Below, piece by piece: positions 1,165 through 53,990 of a stretch of DNA of 64,000 bases. Below the pieces are notes generated by a model that saw only the letters and a program-made list of their open reading frames with translations, had not been told where the DNA came from and ran no database searches. Made by a program: the position numbers and the translations under genes. Each line of letters starts with the position of its first letter. The stretch's first letter is position 1. The stretch comes from Methanobrevibacter ruminantium M1 (GTDB lineage Archaea > Methanobacteriota > Methanobacteria > Methanobacteriales > Methanobacteriaceae), in NCBI RefSeq assembly GCF_000024185.1, contig NC_013790.1, forward strand, positions 1,139,501 through 1,203,500. Reading direction: 5' to 3'.

Positions 1165-1316
1165 GAAAATAAGCATAAGTTTATAAAAATAAAATTATAT
1201 GTTTAAAGTTATGTGATGAATAGGTGTTTATTTAAAAATGATTTGAAGAAAGTATTAAAACAATTATTAATACTTAATTCATCAAATGTATAAAAAATTC
1301 TTGTTTTATTAAAAGA

Positions 1317-2150
1317 TTAATTTTTATTTAATAATTCTAAGAACTTTTCCTTTGCCTCGTCAATGGTTAAAGGATAGTCATCATTCATATCATATCCTTC
1401 TTTTTCTAGTTCTTGGAATAGCTCTGTAACAATCGGAACTTCAAGATTTGCCTGTTCAAGAATTTCAGGCTGTGCAAATATTTCTTTTGGAGTTCCTTCT
1501 GCAACTAATTCCCCATCAACCAATACAAAGACCTTTTCTGCATAGGTAGGTACAAGGTTTACCTCGTGAGTTGAGATTATTACAGTGATTCCTTCATCAT
1601 TAAGTTCCTTCAATAGATTGCTTAATGCTGTAACCCCTTGAGGGTCTAGCCCTGCTGTAGGCTCATCCAGAACCATTATCTCTGGTTTCATTGCAAGGAT
1701 TCCTGCAATTGCAACCCTTTTCTTCTGACCTCCGCTTAGGTGGTGAGGAGCTGTCTTTTCATATCCGCTCATTCCAACCCTTGCCAATGCCTCTGTCACT
1801 CTTTTTTGAACCTCTTCCATAGGAAGCTTAAGGTTTAGCGGTCCGAATGCAACGTCCTCTTCTACAGTCGGTGCAAAGATTTGGTCATCAGGGTTTTGGA
1901 ATACGATTCCTACCTTCTGTCTGAATTTAAGCAATGATTTCTTGTCATACTTTAGCTCTTCCCCTTTGATGAAGACCTGTCCCTCATCAGGTTCGTATAT
2001 GCCGTTTAAATGAAGGAACAAGGTAGACTTTCCCGCACCGTTTTTTCCTAAAAGAGCAACCATTTGTCCTTCTTCGACCTTTAGGCTAACTCCCTTAAGT
2101 GCTTGATAATCCTTATTATATGAATATTTAATGTTTCTAACTTCTAACAT
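1317..2150 (-). CDS. cbiO: cobalt ECF transporter ATPase CbiO
   Basis: 277-residue ABC ATPase that powers Co2+ uptake together with CbiM, CbiN and CbiQ. Walker A (GKNGAGKST, about residues 35-43), a Q-loop (VFQNPDDQIF), the LSGGQ signature and Walker B followed by LDEPTAGLDP are all intact, and the length is normal. The VFQNPDDQ string is typical of ECF-type ATPases rather than general ABC importers. Its ATG lies one base after the cbiQ stop, and its ribosome-binding site (GGAGG) is inside the cbiQ 3' end, so the two are translationally coupled. The metal is assigned from the cbiMNQO set and the adjacent corrin genes; nickel is the main alternative. Confidence 0.93.
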   Translation of the reverse strand: MLEVRNIKYSYNKDYQALKGVSLKVEEGQMVALLGKNGAGKSTLFLHLNGIYEPDEGQVFIKGEELKYDKKSLLKFRQKVGIVFQNPDDQIFAPTVEEDVAFGPLNLKLPMEEVQKRVTEALARVGMSGYEKTAPHHLSGGQKKRVAIAGILAMKPEIMVLDEPTAGLDPQGVTALSNLLKELNDEGITVIISTHEVNLVPTYAEKVFVLVDGELVAEGTPKEIFAQPEILEQANLEVPIVTELFQELEKEGYDMNDDYPLTIDEAKEKFLELLNKN

Positions 2151-2151
2151 T

Positions 2152-2844
2152 TTATTCCTCCTTTGGCGGTATATAAACCGGAAGCTCTCCGTCGTAGCCT
2201 CTTGAATCTAAACTGTTTTGCAATGTTTCGCTTTTTTCCAATGATCTTAAAAATATATTGCTTACAAGCGATCCTAAGCACTGCAATGAATTCCAATAGG
2301 AATTATACCCTAATCTTGTCTTCTGTGCCTTCTGCATCACATCAATCTCATTTAGGAATATGAAGATTGTATTGTACATCAAAAGCCCTATCTCAATCAC
2401 TATTTTAGGAACCTTAAGTGTTTCCAAACAGTGGAAGATCTTTGCAATAGGTGTTGTAAGGGCTAGGAATCCTAGGATAGGAAAACACCCTAACACTCTG
2501 AAGAATGTGTAGAGACCGTAATGCCATGAGTCGTCGGTGACTACGATTCCAAAGAATCCTGTTTGGTAGATGACCTTTCCGCTTCCGAAGAAGAATATCA
2601 GAAATAGACATGTTATTATAAGGAATGCCATCGGAATGGTCAGGAATTTTATGTAAGAGCGGATGTTTATCTTTGCAACTCCAAGAATTATGATGGAGAA
2701 TAGTATGAACATGAAAATGTCAAAGTACAGGTTGTCCAATGCCAATGTAACAATCAGTAGAATTATGGTTATAAATAATTTATAATAAGGATTTGCTTCG
2801 CTAAGTTCATTGTGATGAGCAATATAATCCATATCAAATTTCAT
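2152..2844 (-). CDS. cbiQ: cobalt ECF transporter transmembrane component CbiQ
   Basis: 230-residue integral membrane protein with several hydrophobic segments. The late cytoplasmic part contains an Arg/Ala-containing coupling stretch (around RLGYNSYWNSLQCLG and SRGYDGELP) of the kind that contacts the ATPases in the CbiQ/EcfT family. It is the scaffold linking CbiO to the CbiMN substrate-binding part. It begins 343 bp downstream of cbiN, a gap filled by tandem repeats, and has its own promoter-like box and a GTGA ribosome-binding site, so cbiQO can probably be transcribed apart from cbiMN. Confidence 0.9.
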   Translation of the reverse strand: MKFDMDYIAHHNELSEANPYYKLFITIILLIVTLALDNLYFDIFMFILFSIIILGVAKINIRSYIKFLTIPMAFLIITCLFLIFFFGSGKVIYQTGFFGIVVTDDSWHYGLYTFFRVLGCFPILGFLALTTPIAKIFHCLETLKVPKIVIEIGLLMYNTIFIFLNEIDVMQKAQKTRLGYNSYWNSLQCLGSLVSNIFLRSLEKSETLQNSLDSRGYDGELPVYIPPKEE

Positions 2845-2848
2845 AAAA

Positions 2849-2893
2849 TCACTAAAGAATCATTATATTGAATAAAAATTTATAAAAAGTCTT
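2849..2893 (-). promoter_or_regulatory. putative cbiQO promoter and RBS
   Basis: On the minus strand, AAGACTTTTTATAAA (2893-2879) resembles an archaeal TATA box about 40 nt before the cbiQ ATG, which would give a leader of about 15 nt. GTGA at 2852-2849 is the ribosome-binding site. The same AAGACTTTTTATAAA box occurs in the upstream tandem repeats. Confidence 0.5.
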
Positions 2894-2939
2894 GTTTTTT
2901 TGTTAACTGAATAAAGTTGTTATTTGGATGTTAAATTTT

Positions 2940-3124
2940 AAAAAGTCTTTTCCACTTTTTTAGTTAAATTCATTTTAGAATTTAAGTTATTATTTTATAA
3001 AAAGTCTTTTCCACTTTTTTAGTTAAATTCATTTTAGAATTTAAGTTATTATTTTATAAAAAGTCTTTTCCACTTTTTTAGTTAAATTCATATTTGAATT
3101 TAAGTTATTTATTTATAAAAAGTT
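2940..3124. repeat. 59-bp tandem repeat inside the cbiMNQO locus
   Basis: Three near-identical 59-bp units (2940-2998, 2999-3057, 3058-about 3116) and the start of a fourth. Read on the minus strand, each contains the promoter-like box ACTTTTTATAAA preceded by AAAGTGGAAAAG. They lie between cbiN and cbiQ, so the repeat may multiply a promoter element for cbiQO. Confidence 0.9.
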
Positions 3125-3159
3125 TTGGTCTAATAAGTATAAGAATAATTTTAAGGTAT

Positions 3160-3200
3160 AAAAAAAGAAAAAAGGGATAAAGAAGATCTATTCTTCTTTA
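3160..3200 (-). terminator. hairpin terminator at the end of cbiN
   Basis: Minus strand: a perfect 9-bp stem TAAAGAAGA / TCTTCTTTA with a 5-nt loop (3200-3178) overlaps the cbiN stop codon. It is followed by CCC and two T-runs (3173-3160). This would end or reduce transcription between cbiMN and cbiQO. Confidence 0.65.
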
Positions 3201-3475
3201 CCTTGTCCTCTCCAGTAGCCGAAGAAGTAACCAATAATGATTGCACCTATAGCTGCTTGAAGAGCGAATAATAAACTTTCTATTTCACCACTAGGTGGTT
3301 CCCATATTGATGAGAACCATGGTTTAAAACCAGATTCTTCAATAGCTTCGCCAGCTGCATCGTCTGCTCCGCCGAAGTATCCATCATCTTCACCAAGACC
3401 GCTGTACATAACTAATGGTGCTATGAAGATTATAGCACAAATGACTGCTAAAATAATTAATGTTGTTCTTTCCAT
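3188..3475 (-). CDS. cbiN: cobalt transport protein CbiN
   Basis: 95-residue small membrane partner of CbiM. It has two hydrophobic helices (about residues 4-25 and 70-90) joined by an acidic extracellular loop containing GLGEDDGYFGGAD and KPWFSSIWEPPSGEIESLLFALQA, the family hallmark. I use the ATG at 3475 rather than the in-frame one at 3496: an AGGTGA ribosome-binding site (3486-3481) sits 5 nt before it and overlaps the cbiM stop, whereas the earlier start would lie inside cbiM. CbiN is needed for cobalt, as distinct from most nickel, ECF transporters. Confidence 0.9.
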   Translation of the reverse strand: MERTTLIILAVICAIIFIAPLVMYSGLGEDDGYFGGADDAAGEAIEESGFKPWFSSIWEPPSGEIESLLFALQAAIGAIIIGYFFGYWRGQGKEE

Positions 3476-3485
3476 ATTAATCACC

Positions 3486-4151
3486 TTATGCTTCATTAGG
3501 AGCTAATACACCTAATTTGTCTAATAATTTTGGTTTGTAAGCTTTTAATCTGTCCCATATGATTACGGTTAAGATACCTTCACCAATAGCTAATGGTACT
3601 TGAGTTACTGCAAAGATAACTAAGAATTTTGTTAATGCGCTGCCAAAAGAAGGAGCAGGGAATGCGAAAGCTAATTGGAATGAAGTAGCCACATAAGTTA
3701 ATAAGTCACCTAAGAATGCTGCAAAGAAAATTGCAATGGTTGATGAAATATTAGCTTTGATGCAAGCTTTGTATACGAGCCAAGCAACGAATGGGCCTAT
3801 AATACCCATTGAGAAAATGTTTGCACCTAAAGTGGTTAATCCGCCGTGAGCAAGTAAGATTGCTTGGAACAAGAGTACGATAGTTGCAAGTACAGCAGTT
3901 ACAGCAGGGCCGAATAATGCTGCACCTAATCCGTTACCACAAGGGTGAGAACAGCTTCCAGTAACGGAAGGGAGTTTTAAAGATGATAAGATGAACATGA
4001 ATGCTCCACTGACAGCGAGTAATGCCTTGGAGTCAGGTGTTTCATCTACAATTTGTTTTATTTGATAGATACCGTAAGCGACAACGATGAATGATACGAC
4101 GAACCATATGATACACCATGTCAAAGGTAAATATCCTTCCATAATGTGCAT
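3486..4151 (-). CDS. cbiM: cobalt ECF transporter substrate-binding component CbiM
   Basis: 221-residue polytopic membrane protein. The N-terminus MHIMEGYLP is the conserved metal-coordinating start of CbiM/NikM, which must lie right at the N-terminus, so this start is firm. A second conserved His-containing segment, [18 protein letters not shown], follows after about 60 residues. A GGAGG ribosome-binding site precedes the ATG. It is the first gene of the importer and is divergent from the corrin biosynthesis genes, with palindromic promoter-proximal sites at 4215-4236 and 4308-4337. Confidence 0.93.
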
Positions 4152-4214
4152 GTTTTATTTCCTCCAAATATTAAAATAAAAAAATATTATTTTTTAATTC
4201 ACTATATCATATAA

Positions 4215-4236
4215 TGAGCATATTTATATATGCTCA
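4215..4236. promoter_or_regulatory. palindromic operator overlapping a TATA-like box
   Basis: Perfect inverted repeat TGAGCATAT-N4-ATATGCTCA, 64 bp upstream of cbiM. Its centre (TTTATATA, or TATATAAA on the minus strand) resembles a TATA box for cbiM. A half site TGAGCATAT recurs at 4400-4408 nearer cbiL. It suits a dimeric metal- or corrinoid-responsive repressor, but which one is unknown. Confidence 0.5.
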
Positions 4237-4307
4237 AAACATAACTTTATTAAAGTATTGCTAGATTTTTTAGTTGTTGCTATGCAATGCAACTGAAAAT
4301 ACTTCAA

Positions 4308-4337
4308 TAAGTATATTTATATAATAAGTTATACTTA
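4308..4337. promoter_or_regulatory. second inverted repeat in the cbiM-cbiL divergent region
   Basis: TAAGTATA-N14-TATACTTA, 8-bp perfect arms around TTTATATAATAAGT. The wide spacing recalls NikR-type operators (two short arms about 14-16 bp apart), but the arm sequence is not the bacterial NikR consensus. The rest of 4152-4685 is AT-rich, with an imperfect stem-loop near 4271-4293 and a TATA-like AAATTTATAATAG near 4426 that could serve cbiL. I see no cobalamin riboswitch features. Confidence 0.4.
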
Positions 4338-4685
4338 AACTTATTTGACAACATATAAAATTTAGTTGATTTTGATTATTTATTTTATATTAACTAAAAT
4401 GAGCATATTTTTTATCAAAAATTCTTAAATTTATAATAGTGCTCTATTTAAACTTGCTTTAAAATATAATGTGTTTATTTAACTTTAAATTAAATTTAAG
4501 GCTATTTGCTATAATTAATTTAGTTATGTTTCTTATGGTTTTCTAAAATATCTAAATTTAATCATTTAGGTATTTGAAAAATTCATATAAAAACAATTTT
4601 TAGGCATTTTTAAAAATTTATTTTAAAAGCAATTTAAGCATTTTTAAAAAATTCATTTTAAGAAAATAAATTCTAGGGTATTGAA

Positions 4686-5372
4686 ATGGAGAAAGGAAAA
4701 TTATATGGTGTAAGCATTGGCCCGGGAGATCCTGAGCTAATAACTGTAAAGGCAATGAATATAATATCAAAATCCAAGTATATTGCAACTCCTCATACTG
4801 GAACAGGGGAATCCTTGGCATTGTCAATAGTGTCCCAGGCGATAGACTTGTCCAATAAGGAGATAATGCTTTTGGAGTTTCCTATGACAAAGGATAAAGA
4901 TATATTGACTAAAAGCCATAATGAGGCTGCAGAAGCAATTATTAAGGTTCTTGACAGTGGAGAGGATGTTGCAATGTTGAATCTAGGTGATGTTACTATC
5001 TATTCAACTTTTGACTATACTAAGGATAAATTAGTGGAAAGAGGCTATGATGTTCAGGTTATTCCAGGTGTCACAAGCTTTTGTGCATCTGCATCTGAGC
5101 TTAAGATAGGCCTGACAACTATGAATGAGCCTTTGCATATCATTCCAGCAAGCGGAATAGACATTAAAGAAGCTCTTAAGATGCCGGGATCCAAGGTCTT
5201 CATGAAGATTGGAAGGTCAATGCCTAAGCTGATTGAAGCGATTGAGGAACTTGGTCTTCAAGACAATGTTTATGCAGTTGAAAACTGTGGTTTGGAAAAT
5301 GAGAAGGTTTATAAAGGTCTAAAAGAGTTTGATGAAAAAATGGGCTATTTTACTATAGTCGTTGTTAAATAA
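4686..5372 (+). CDS. cbiL: cobalt-precorrin-2 C20-methyltransferase CbiL
   Basis: 228-residue SAM-dependent tetrapyrrole methylase; it adds the C20 methyl group to cobalt-factor/precorrin-2, the first ring methylation after cobalt insertion. The N-terminal GVSIGPGDPELITVKA motif and the central VIPGVTSFCASASELKIGL are typical of CbiL/CobI, and the length is normal. It heads the plus-strand corrin cluster, divergent from the cobalt importer, so both may share one control region. Confidence 0.93.
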   Translation: MEKGKLYGVSIGPGDPELITVKAMNIISKSKYIATPHTGTGESLALSIVSQAIDLSNKEIMLLEFPMTKDKDILTKSHNEAAEAIIKVLDSGEDVAMLNLGDVTIYSTFDYTKDKLVERGYDVQVIPGVTSFCASASELKIGLTTMNEPLHIIPASGIDIKEALKMPGSKVFMKIGRSMPKLIEAIEELGLQDNVYAVENCGLENEKVYKGLKEFDEKMGYFTIVVVK

Positions 5373-7522: not shown

Positions 7523-8545
7523 ATGAAGATATCAATCATTGGATTTACAGATAATGGCATGGAAATAGCCTATAAATTATCAAATTCCCTATCAGAGGAT
7601 AATAATATAAGTTTCACTAGATGTGGAAAAGGAGAGTTATCTATTTGGACAGAAGAACATTTTTCAGATAGTGATGCTCTTATATTTATAGGTGCGATAG
7701 GAATAGCCTTAAGGGCAATTGCTCCTTACATTAAGACCAAAACAAAGGATCCTGCCGTTGTTGTAGTGGATGAATTGGGACAATTCTCCATACCTATTCT
7801 ATCAGGGCATATTGGTGGAGCCAATGAATTGGCACTTCAGATAGCAGATATATTAAATGCAATTCCAGTCATTACAACTGCAACTGATATAAATAATCTA
7901 TTTGCAATAGATACTTGGGCAAAAAGCCAAGGATTGAAGATTTTAAATCCAGAATGCATTAAACTGGTTTCATCCAAATTGCTGAAGGGGGAAACAATTC
8001 ATATAAAATCTGATTATCCTATTCAGGGAAACTTGCCCAAGAAGGTCCAAATCAATGATTTAGAAGATTCTAATAGTGATTATGATGTCATAATCAGCCA
8101 TAATGATTATAGTTATATGGAGAATAAGGATATATTGTTATTAATACCTTCAATAATTACAATAGGTATTGGCTGTAGAAAGGATATAAGTTTTGATAAC
8201 ATTGAAAGATCCGTTTTAAATATATTGGATAAGGAGAATTATCATATACTGTCTTTAAATGCAATTGCAAGCATTGATAAGAAGGCTAATGAAAAGGGAA
8301 TATTGGAATTTGCAAGGAAATACAATCTGCCATTCAATACTTATAGTGCTGAAGAGCTGAACAGTCTTGAAGGAGATTTCACAAAGTCAGAATTTGTAAA
8401 AAGCGTTGTGGAAGTGGATAATGTCTGTGAACGTTCCGCAGTCATAGAAAGCAATGGAAACTTGATTAGAAGAAAGGACACTTGTGATGGTGCGGGAGTG
8501 ACTGTTGCTTTGGCAATGATTAATCCTATTCTTTCATGGGATTGA
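7523..8545 (+). CDS. cbiG: cobalt-precorrin-5A hydrolase CbiG
   Basis: 340-residue CbiG, which opens the delta-lactone of cobalt-precorrin-5A and releases the C20 carbon as acetaldehyde. Features include FIGAIGIALRAIAPYIKTKTKDPAV, the central SGHIGGANELA and TATDINN segments, the GIGCRKDIS motif that starts the C-terminal domain, and NVCERSAVI. The stop codon lies inside the first unit of a 30-bp tandem repeat (8540-8701), so the gene's 3' end appears to have seeded that repeat. Confidence 0.92.
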   Translation: MKISIIGFTDNGMEIAYKLSNSLSEDNNISFTRCGKGELSIWTEEHFSDSDALIFIGAIGIALRAIAPYIKTKTKDPAVVVVDELGQFSIPILSGHIGGANELALQIADILNAIPVITTATDINNLFAIDTWAKSQGLKILNPECIKLVSSKLLKGETIHIKSDYPIQGNLPKKVQINDLEDSNSDYDVIISHNDYSYMENKDILLLIPSIITIGIGCRKDISFDNIERSVLNILDKENYHILSLNAIASIDKKANEKGILEFARKYNLPFNTYSAEELNSLEGDFTKSEFVKSVVEVDNVCERSAVIESNGNLIRRKDTCDGAGVTVALAMINPILSWD

Positions 8546-8701
8546 TTAAATTGATTATGTTCTTATATTGGATTGATTAGGTGATCATGTTATTTTATAG
8601 GATTGATTAGGTGATCATGTTCTTTTATGGGATTGATTAGGTGATCATGTTCTTTTATGGGATTGATTAGGTTGATTATGTTTTTTTATGGGATTGATTA
8701 G
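8540..8701 (+). repeat. 30-bp tandem repeat carrying five 7-codon mini-ORFs
   Basis: Five units begin at 8540, 8571, 8601, 8631 and 8661 (30 or 31 bp, unit start GATTGATTAGGTGATCATG), then a partial unit. Unit 1 contains the cbiG stop codon. Each unit has an ATG with a 7-codon frame of consensus MFFYGID (8557-8580, 8587-8610, 8617-8640, 8647-8670, 8678-8701). In ORFs 2-4 the stop codon of the preceding ORF overlaps an AGGTGA ribosome-binding site just before the ATG. The extra base in the 31-bp units lies outside the mini-ORFs. Translation is unproven. Confidence 0.85.
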
Positions 8702-34841: not shown

Positions 34842-35849
34842 TCTTTTTACAATTCTTTTGATAAAATTAAGTAATTGAGATTATTTTTTCACATTAATTG
34901 TCGTTTAACACTTGTTTAAAAATTTCTAGTTTTGATTTATTTATATTCAATCTTTTAAAAATGGTTTTTTCAATATGTGGTAATTTTTGATAATTTCATA
35001 CTCAATATTTAAATACTATGATGATTATAAATAATTATTAATGAATTATATGGTGGTTATATTTATTTGATTATTATCATATGATTGGAATTTTAAATTG
35101 TCGTTTGTATATTAAAGTTTAAAATTCATCCGGGACCCTAATAAAACACTTAAGGGTATTTAATTTATCAAAAAAGATTTAAAATAAAAAATTAAGGTGA
35201 TTTATAAATTTTAAAGAAATAAAATTTTATAGATATTAGATTAAAATTTGATTAAGATCTAGATTAAATTTTAGGTCAAATTTTAGATTAAATTTATCAT
35301 AATTTTCAATATTTTATTTTAGGATTTATCATTTGGATTTAAGTTAATTAGAGTTAATTTCATATTTTAATAGATAATTTAGCTTATTAAATGATTTAAT
35401 TTTCATTTTTTAAAAGATAATAAAATTTATATTTTATGTTTTATATTTTATGTTTTAAATAATTTTTAAGGGTATTAAATTATTTTAAGATAATTTAAGT
35501 AATATAATAATTTTTATCAAAAAATCTTCACTTAAATTAAATATCTGTTTTTTAGGTTTCTGTTTTTATTTAAATAATCATAAATTATTATTTTATAATA
35601 ATTTCAATGGTTTTTATTTACTTATCATAACTTTTATTTTTTTAAAATAATGCTATGATTTTTATGTACTTGTCGTAAGTTGTTATTTTTTTAAAATAAT
35701 GCTATGATTTTTATGTACTTGTCGTAAGTTGTTATTTTTTTAAAATAATGCTATGATTTTTAATTGTTATTTTTTAAAAATAACTCTAATGATTTATATT
35801 TTACAAATCAATTATTTATTATACTTATTCAATACAAAAGAGGAAAGAA
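34842..35849. other. 1-kb AT-rich gap with 49-bp tandem repeats
   Basis: No gene of useful length in any frame. Near 35651-35699 and 35700-35748 are two near-perfect 49-bp units containing TGCTATGATTTTTATGTACT and TGTCGTAAGTTGT, flanked by a degenerate unit before (from about 35602) and a partial unit after (to about 35785). Other recurring words are ATTGTCGTTT (34896, 35096) and TTAAGGGTATT (about 35152, 35467). Promoter activity for fni is likely, but the site is not clear. Confidence 0.6.
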
Positions 35850-53731: not shown

Positions 53732-53970
53732 AAACTATTTTTTCCCATATTTTTTTGCTATTGTTTGGCTATTGTAGAACTATTTTTTTCCCATATTTTT
53801 TTGCTATTGTTTGGCTATTGTAGAACTATTTTTTTCCCATATTTTTTTGCTATTGTTTGGCTATTGTAGAACTATTTTTTTCCCATATTTTTTTGCTATT
53901 GTTTGGCTATTGTAGAACTATTTTTTTCTCATATTTTTTTGCTATTGTTTGATTCTAGCTGAACTATTTT
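53732..53970. repeat. 46-bp tandem repeat, about five units
   Basis: Units (53769-53814, 53815-53860, 53861-53906, 53907-53952, with partial units on both sides) share GCTATTGTTTGGCTATTGTA, GAACTATTTTTTTCCCATAT and TTTTTTT. The first four boundaries are almost exact copies, so the expansion is recent. It is non-coding, upstream of the minus-strand helical gene. Confidence 0.92.
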
Positions 53971-53990
53971 TTTAGAATTTTTCCCTATTT

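Follow-up and report, generated by a model that had tools for sequence, protein, structure and literature searches.

Cobalt goes into corrinoid synthesis, which methanogenesis requires, and in Methanobrevibacter ruminantium M1 the genes of a cobalt importer are parted between cbiN and cbiQ by a spacer that holds a hairpin, a T-run and a tandem array. Does this interruption end one transcript and start another, does it set the proportion between the parts of the importer, or is it a neutral insertion? An earlier note on this DNA had read the locus as an operon split by a terminator and by triplicated promoter boxes, while the main text of the genome paper (PMC2812497) mentions none of the terms cobalt, cbi, intergenic, promoter or terminator.

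Layout of the operon and its leader

The window, a stretch of 64,000 nucleotides within the single 2,937,203-base contig of M. ruminantium M1, carries on its minus strand the order cbiM-cbiN-(343 bp)-cbiQ-cbiO, and all four products passed the NCBIfam cut-offs for the cobalt subunits (Table 1). CbiM, CbiN, CbiQ and CbiO are thus encoded together, as in a CbiMNQO ECF importer, which we take to be of group I. As in other group I CbiMNQO transporters, the set is complete and in order, but here a 343-bp spacer with a putative terminator and an array sits between N and Q.

Table 1. Features of the cbi locus, in window coordinates
Feature	Position	Strand	Basis or detail
cbiO, ECF ATPase	1317-2150	-	NCBIfam TIGR01166, 277.9 bits vs cut-off 211.8
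cbiQ, ECF T component	2152-2844	-	NCBIfam TIGR02454, 165.6 bits vs cut-off 111.8
Ancestral spacer preceding cbiQ, aligns with sister-species spacers	2845-2904	-	shuffle-tested alignment
AGTGAT, putative ribosome-binding site of cbiQ	2853-2848	-	within ancestral spacer
TTTATAAA, TATA-like, 35-42 nt before cbiQ	2879-2886		orientation ambiguous
59-bp minisatellite	2939-3123		3.1 copies, 96% matches
TTTATAAA within array	2994-3001
TTTATAAA within array	3053-3060
TTTATAAA at cbiN-side end of array	3112-3119
T6-C-T7 tract 3' of hairpin, part of putative internal-operon terminator	3160-3173	-	sequence
Hairpin over cbiN stop codon, 11 pairs	3176-3202	-	9 consecutive Watson-Crick pairs 3200-3178, loop 5
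cbiN, second S-unit component	3188-3496	-	NCBIfam TIGR01165, 120.3 bits vs cut-off 104.85; Pfam PF02553
cbiM, cobalt ECF transporter S component	3486-4151	-	NCBIfam TIGR00123, 339.6 bits vs cut-off 184.15

On the statement that cbiMNQO operons are usually tight, cbiN and cbiQ do not overlap in the relatives either; the gap is 32-92 nt in 40 of the 42 relatives whose CbiQ is at least 53.5% identical to that of the window, the other two having 162 nt (L017) and 428 nt (L018). Long gaps are found at L018/L061 (428 nt), with the hairpin and T-run kept in L018, and at L019 (395 nt), where they are non-significant; because these loci also have long gaps, spacer growth at this junction probably happened more than once.

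Rfam searches led us to reject a known RNA family in the cbiN-cbiQ junction or the cbiM leader: they returned only tRNA in the window, nothing in window positions 1200-4700 at E values up to 1, and only tRNA in three relatives. The cbiM leader of 24 relatives chosen for alignment gave a consensus RNA structure of 0 pairs. In all 24, ATCAA...TTGAT positions recur ahead of cbiM, both close to TTATCAATAAAACTTT and within TATCAA-TTGATA immediately preceding the ribosome site; with no RNA consensus structure, these positions are probably DNA operators. Relatives outside the 24 have other cbiM leaders. The window does not have the ATCAA...TTGAT positions; instead it has a perfect 22-bp dyad, TGAGCATA-N6-TATGCTCA, at 4214-4235, and a genome search for this dyad as a regulon motif returned itself as the sole exact match, together with ten others with 2-3 mismatches.

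Conservation and placement of the hairpin and T-run

The perfect 9-bp hairpin with T-runs that had been described on the minus strand was confirmed and comprises 11 pairs in all, followed by T6-C-T7. Its left arm is formed by the last codons of cbiN, and its MFE is -11.5 kcal/mol (z -2.3; 4 of 200 shuffles equally good); when the T-run was required as well, none of 100 shuffles of the window junction was equally good. The window thus holds a stem-loop stabler than chance followed by a T-run, the anatomy of an intrinsic terminator. A terminator scan found 4 sites per 7 kb where 3.6 were expected, and for this reason the scan alone proves nothing and conservation carries the case.

Junctions between cbiN and cbiQ were taken from 114 loci, including 80 of the 486 relative-encoding loci, and after loci missing either gene and identical junctions had been dropped, 93 distinct junctions were left, the window's included. 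A hairpin followed by a T-run was found at all 43 distinct junctions with a CbiQ at least 53.5% identical (the window and 42 relatives), with a stem of at least 9 pairs and then at least 7 T in 9, and when each was tested against 100 dinucleotide shuffles, 42 gave p<=0.05 and L017 gave 0.07. The stem begins within the last cbiN codons in 41 of the 43 junctions, GTGAT lies ahead of the cbiQ start in 28, and in many species with tight gaps the T-run passes straight into the putative cbiQ ribosome site. The hairpin and T-run are common to close relatives and not special to M. ruminantium M1.

Against a terminator counts that the left arm encodes protein, most often ...K-E-E, so that part of its conservation reflects protein constraint. 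Where the cbiN end changes, the opposite arm tends to change to match: AAAGATGATT pairs with AATCATCTTT in L044 and L046, and AAAAGGGATA with TATCCCTTTT in L077. For the nine junctions without AAAGAAGAA at the cbiN end, the stem score with their own arms averaged 18.2, compared with 14.1 (sd 1.3, largest 17.4) when the right arms were permuted among them, and 0 of 200 permutations reached 18.2. Single arm swaps were clear in five of the nine (L044, L046, L049, L017 and L077, with 0-4 of 42 foreign arms equally good) and not clear in four, where 15 (L058), 24 (L056), 27 (L059, whose reading ends early) and 41 (L079, whose hairpin lies outside the tested stretch) of 42 foreign arms were equally good.

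Farther from the window the picture changes. At all eight junctions with a CbiQ 44-53% identical (M. filiformis, M. curvatus, M. cuticularis and others; L021, L019, L024, L023, L026, L025, L027 and L063) the signature is absent or non-significant, and below 44% identity it is significant in 12 of 42 junctions, eight of them outside the Methanosphaera-like group (L078, L086, L094, L098, L099, L108, L112 and L114, with stems of just 6-7 pairs in seven). Within that group a significant hairpin and T-run of unrelated sequence occurs in four of seven junctions (L092, L066, L091 and L075; p 0.00 each), and L087, L103 and L031 have no significant one. Since the signature is absent or non-significant at the 44-53% junctions and significant in a minority below, it is not essential to CbiMNQO. 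The Methanoculleus-type junctions (L086, L094, L098, L099, L112 and L114) show a T-run after a short GC-rich stem at the cbiN stop (6 pairs, p 0.00-0.02), which may be a device of the same kind that arose independently.

We then compared this placement with the rest of the gene ends. In 38 Methanobrevibacter-type loci (of L035-L082), from species that are related so that the counts are not independent, the signature, at a score of 18 or more, stands at 32 of the 63 convergent gene ends, places where transcripts have to finish, whereas a single one of the 187 tight codirectional junctions outside cbiN carries it. In a 444-kb sample of the own genome (the window and 19 other stretches), a score of at least 20 was reached at none of the 49 junctions of up to 60 nt, at 1 of the 52 that measure 61-150 nt and at 27 of the 211 that are wider or convergent, where shuffles gave about 2. 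Because it is common at convergent ends and near absent from other tight junctions, the signature is a normal transcript-end mark, unusually placed within an operon.

Archaeal termination relies chiefly on the U-tract, and for this reason the hairpin may serve mRNA stability instead, as a 3'-end stabiliser or processing site in a full-length transcript whose decay would raise cbiMN over cbiQO. The anatomy would be identical, and stem-loops that close the leading genes of an importer operon are known to stabilise mRNA (bacterial malE-malF). Loops after SBP genes are also described as affecting the stability of the upstream transcript (PMC9045158), but the T-run that follows the hairpin at every one of the 43 junctions is not needed for a stability hairpin, and the same signature marks half of the relatives' convergent ends, and we consider this explanation unlikely.

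The 59-bp array and the palindromic boxes

The three 59-bp repeats reported between cbiN and cbiQ are real (3.1 copies), and M. ruminantium M1 is rich in such elements. Counting intergenic arrays with a period of 25-120, 2 or more copies, 85% or more matches and a score of 120 or higher, we found 61 in the 444-kb sample of the own genome (50 per 100 kb of intergenic DNA) and 7 in the relatives' cbi loci (11 per 100 kb of intergenic DNA). Counts per 60 kb in other genomes, where draft assemblies may lose arrays, were 0 in G009, G002 and G022, 1 in G020, 4 in G016 and 9 in G013, with 0 in 40 kb of G034; G013 (L177-L179), G009 and G002 belong to the same genus as M1, G013 being as rich in intergenic arrays as M1 is, so that the habit is patchy. 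The window itself has further intergenic minisatellites with units of 30-49 bp, each with its own unit sequence, at 910-1158, 8529-8701, 35585-35762 and 53733-53973. Satellites of M. ruminantium are described in PMC6749651 as unrelated, unique and scattered long-unit tandem arrays, at least half of them non-coding, and the 59-bp array, non-coding, with a unit of more than 30 nt and a unique sequence, fits that description; PMC6749651 gives 36 satellites with units above 30 nt genome-wide under its own criteria, whereas our 61 in 444 kb come from looser ones.

Among 19 genomes of the genus, the array is present at full length only in that of the window. The best match elsewhere, 78% over 79 nt, is no better than weak matches elsewhere in the own genome, and the 18 other genomes yield only short weak ones. 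A dispersed repeat family was rejected, as TTTATAAAAAGTCTT occurs 3 times in the genome, always in this array; three weak matches in the own genome were likewise set aside (L002 is a different 60-bp array, L003 is AT-rich DNA before a gene, and L004 was scanned for repeats). Sister species have no array here, and their spacer after the T-run, of at most ~65 nt, can be aligned to the 60 nt that directly precede cbiQ in the window, with scores reached by 0 of 500 shuffles for L010, 1 for L007, 7 for L006 and 9 for L012. Since these array-free spacers align to the cbiQ-proximal 60 nt, the array was inserted between the terminator and an ancestral spacer.

The abundance of intergenic arrays in this genome, their standing as a published trait of M. 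ruminantium (PMC6749651) and the interposed position of this one incline us, if only slightly, to the view that the minisatellite grew neutrally and leaves cbiQO unaffected. Against neutral growth stands the unusual self-complementarity of the unit, which contains two dyads, TTAAATTC-N6-GAATTTAA and AAAAAAGT-loop-ACTTTTT, and can fold as two perfect hairpins (z -3.4; none of 200 shuffles equally good), ranking 2 of the 61 own-genome arrays in self-structure. Chance, extra terminators and operators are candidate causes of this unusual structure. That the array is a regulatory device, with three operators (TTAAATTC-N6-GAATTTAA) or three extra mini-terminators before cbiQ, draws on these hairpins and on copy-to-copy differences that lie outside the stems, but the very few events that separate the copies leave no basis for judging whether the stems are conserved, the genome abounds in minisatellites, and neither a full-length match in the 18 other genomes nor a copy of TTTATAAAAAGTCTT outside the array was found, and we regard such a device as decidedly improbable.

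The earlier note had also given each repeat a box like that of the expected cbiQ promoter. The boxes exist, three at 59-bp spacing and one before cbiQ, but at the array's cbiQ-side end the box is gone, the sequence there reading TTTTTAAAATTT. Matches to TTTATAAAAAG at 2879, 2994, 3053 and 3112 make up 4 of the 5 in the whole window, where 0.66 were expected and 0 of 100 shuffles reached 5; three of the four boxes are copies by duplication. TTTATAAA equals its own reverse complement and so carries no directional information; a strand comparison of its upstream occurrences (28 forward, 28 reversed) was discarded as uninformative, the palindrome forcing equality. A sigma-70 reading of the boxes was rejected too, the genome being archaeal and the sites numbering 40 with 34.0 expected.

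These boxes bear on the model that the note had put forward, in which M1 has two transcription units, a terminator ending cbiMN and the repeated TTTTTATAAA boxes acting as cbiQO promoters. Consistent with it are the full hairpin and T-run with a 343-bp gap, and a TTTATAAA placed before cbiQ at the usual distance of archaeal promoters, 35-42 nt from the start. The word is in excess in the window (25 occurrences vs a shuffle mean of 12.77; 0 of 100 shuffles had as many), and its 28 upstream occurrences are mildly concentrated 20-49 nt ahead of starts, 11 of them falling there. The cbiQ-proximal box is missing from the aligned sister spacers, L006 (whose sequence is that of the M. olleyae MAG locus L035) reading TTTAGAAA at the aligned site and L010 having no box either, so that a promoter there could be a gain in M1. 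But TTTATAAA is directionless and three of the four boxes are duplicates of one, the non-palindromic TTTATATA is just mildly commoner forward than reversed upstream of 193 genes (25 vs 18), and arrays of this type are common in the genome. In the same 193 upstream regions, TTTATA[AT]A occurs 53 times forward and 46 reversed, and the positional enrichment of TATA-like words is weak. We hold the two-unit model to be doubtful: the case for triplicated promoter boxes is weak, the array being one of many minisatellites, its boxes palindromic and the sister spacers without a box, while a single promoter just before cbiQ, gained in M1, is possible given the excess of TTTATAAA and its mild concentration at that distance. 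The minisatellite lengthens the spacer in M1 and may or may not have brought a cbiQO promoter; a genome-wide minisatellite habit can land within an operon and mimic a designed promoter array.

A putative leaky terminator between S-unit and energy-coupling module

Taking these comparisons together, our best explanation, to which we give a probability of about two in three, is that the cbiN-cbiQ junction is a leaky internal-operon terminator that would keep CbiMN above CbiQO. Polymerase would start upstream of cbiM and transcribe cbiM and cbiN; the RNA at the cbiN end would then fold, the final cbiN codons and the sequence after the stop forming the hairpin with the U-tract next to it, and a fraction of the polymerases would halt there while the remainder would read through into cbiQO. 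The predicted outcome is a bipartite S-unit, CbiMN, in excess of the energy-coupling module, CbiQO. CbiMN by itself has some cobalt transport activity. We infer termination, its leakiness and the ratio from the observed hairpin and T-run, their conservation and their near absence elsewhere. The suggestion that the arrangement sets a ratio between the parts of the importer is in this way supported in kind, as the best reading of the comparative data, the ratio itself being predicted.

The closest parallel is found in M. maripaludis, where internal terminators are reported in 38% of operons and one of them, ioTTS-afuAB, lies between afuA and afuBC of an iron importer, with more than 9-fold more afuA transcript and impaired growth at low Fe(II) when it is disrupted (PMC10450193). 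The cbi junction resembles it as a methanogen metal importer with a putative terminator after the binding gene or genes and before the membrane and ATPase genes, and with the binding part predicted in excess. As at an ioTTS, the flanking genes are codirectional members of one operon, with a gap of at most 60 nt in 33 of the 43 junctions though 343 nt here, and a U-tract lies at the 3' end (T6-C-T7 in the window, at least 7 T in 9 at all 43). It differs from ioTTS-afuAB in that the importer is of the ECF type, that a hairpin precedes the U-tract and is kept in close relatives, and that termination is here predicted; the main text of PMC10450193 makes no mention of cobalt or cbi. In ABC importers of cellulolytic Clostridia, a stem-loop after the SBP gene is likewise described as setting the ratio to the translocator (PMC9045158), and there too the stem-loop follows the substrate-binding gene, but those are bacterial intrinsic terminators with GC-rich stems, whereas the stems here are AT-rich. 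A literature search on cbiN/cbiQ with terminators, on Methanobrevibacter start sites and on internal terminators, judged mostly from listings, showed no study of this junction among the papers listed, and no start-site map of M. ruminantium as far as titles and abstract openings tell. The element is real and of a known kind, kept in close relatives, with no earlier report among those listings for this transporter class, and its function is a predicted one.

A regulated attenuator in place of a fixed partial terminator is, in our view, highly improbable. Because the left arm and loop hold the last cbiN codons and the stop, a ribosome finishing cbiN could melt the hairpin, and readthrough into cbiQO would then rise with cbiN translation and hence with cobalt demand. 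The same highly improbable scheme would have M1 partly escape this control by gaining the spacer and a promoter-like box, and would have the split after N in the paralogous CbiMN-Q operon reflect a free CbiMN pool apart from the ATPase module, general in these methanogens.

The further idea that CbiQO might serve other S-components found no support in a genome-wide search that covered two families, PF12822 and PF01891: PF12822 finds one protein, of the riboflavin type, and PF01891 finds this CbiM and one paralog. The operon in the window is complete, the PF12822 match stands beside a fused double ATPase, and the second CbiMN-Q operon (G000:728949-731177; L138 6947-9177) has its own Q. No cbiO match lies near this second operon, which is likewise without an adjacent cbiO in nine sister genomes (the L157 contig ends ~0.6 kb after Q); in six more distant genomes cbiO stands beside it in four (L158, L160, L162 and L163; not L161 or L164). 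A CbiO 60% identical to that of the window, at G000:1618879-1619706, may be its ATPase. Near that CbiO are the riboflavin-type S-component, the fused double ATPase and, where a T component would stand, a protein of 351 aa that no family assigns as T.

In this genome (L138 7876-8346) and the nine sisters, N and Q of the second operon lie 198-499 nt apart, and hairpins follow N in most of these ten, without a T-run by the criterion used. Among the distant second operons, a candidate hairpin is followed by a T-run in L158 and by a shorter one in L160 and L162, all of unrelated sequence, and L163 and L164 have short gaps and no strong hairpin. Both operons of M1 thus set the S-unit apart from the module, an arrangement that fits the ratio model but does not make CbiQO of the window a shared module. 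We rejected PMC5816558, whose main text lists cbiM1 and cbiN1 (up) and no cbiQ or cbiO, as evidence for the operon in the window: since hmd, mru_0526 of its table, sits at 715.5 kb, mru_0539/0540 correspond to the paralogous operon at 729 kb. The silence of that text on cbiQ1 may be a threshold effect.

If the junction is indeed a leaky terminator, the cobalt importers of many gut Methanobrevibacter would have their metal-binding unit in excess, set by a conserved terminator, and internal-operon termination would be seen in an ECF importer as well as in a classical iron ABC importer. The MN:QO ratio would then be physiologically relevant, and it could be tested in a tractable methanogen.
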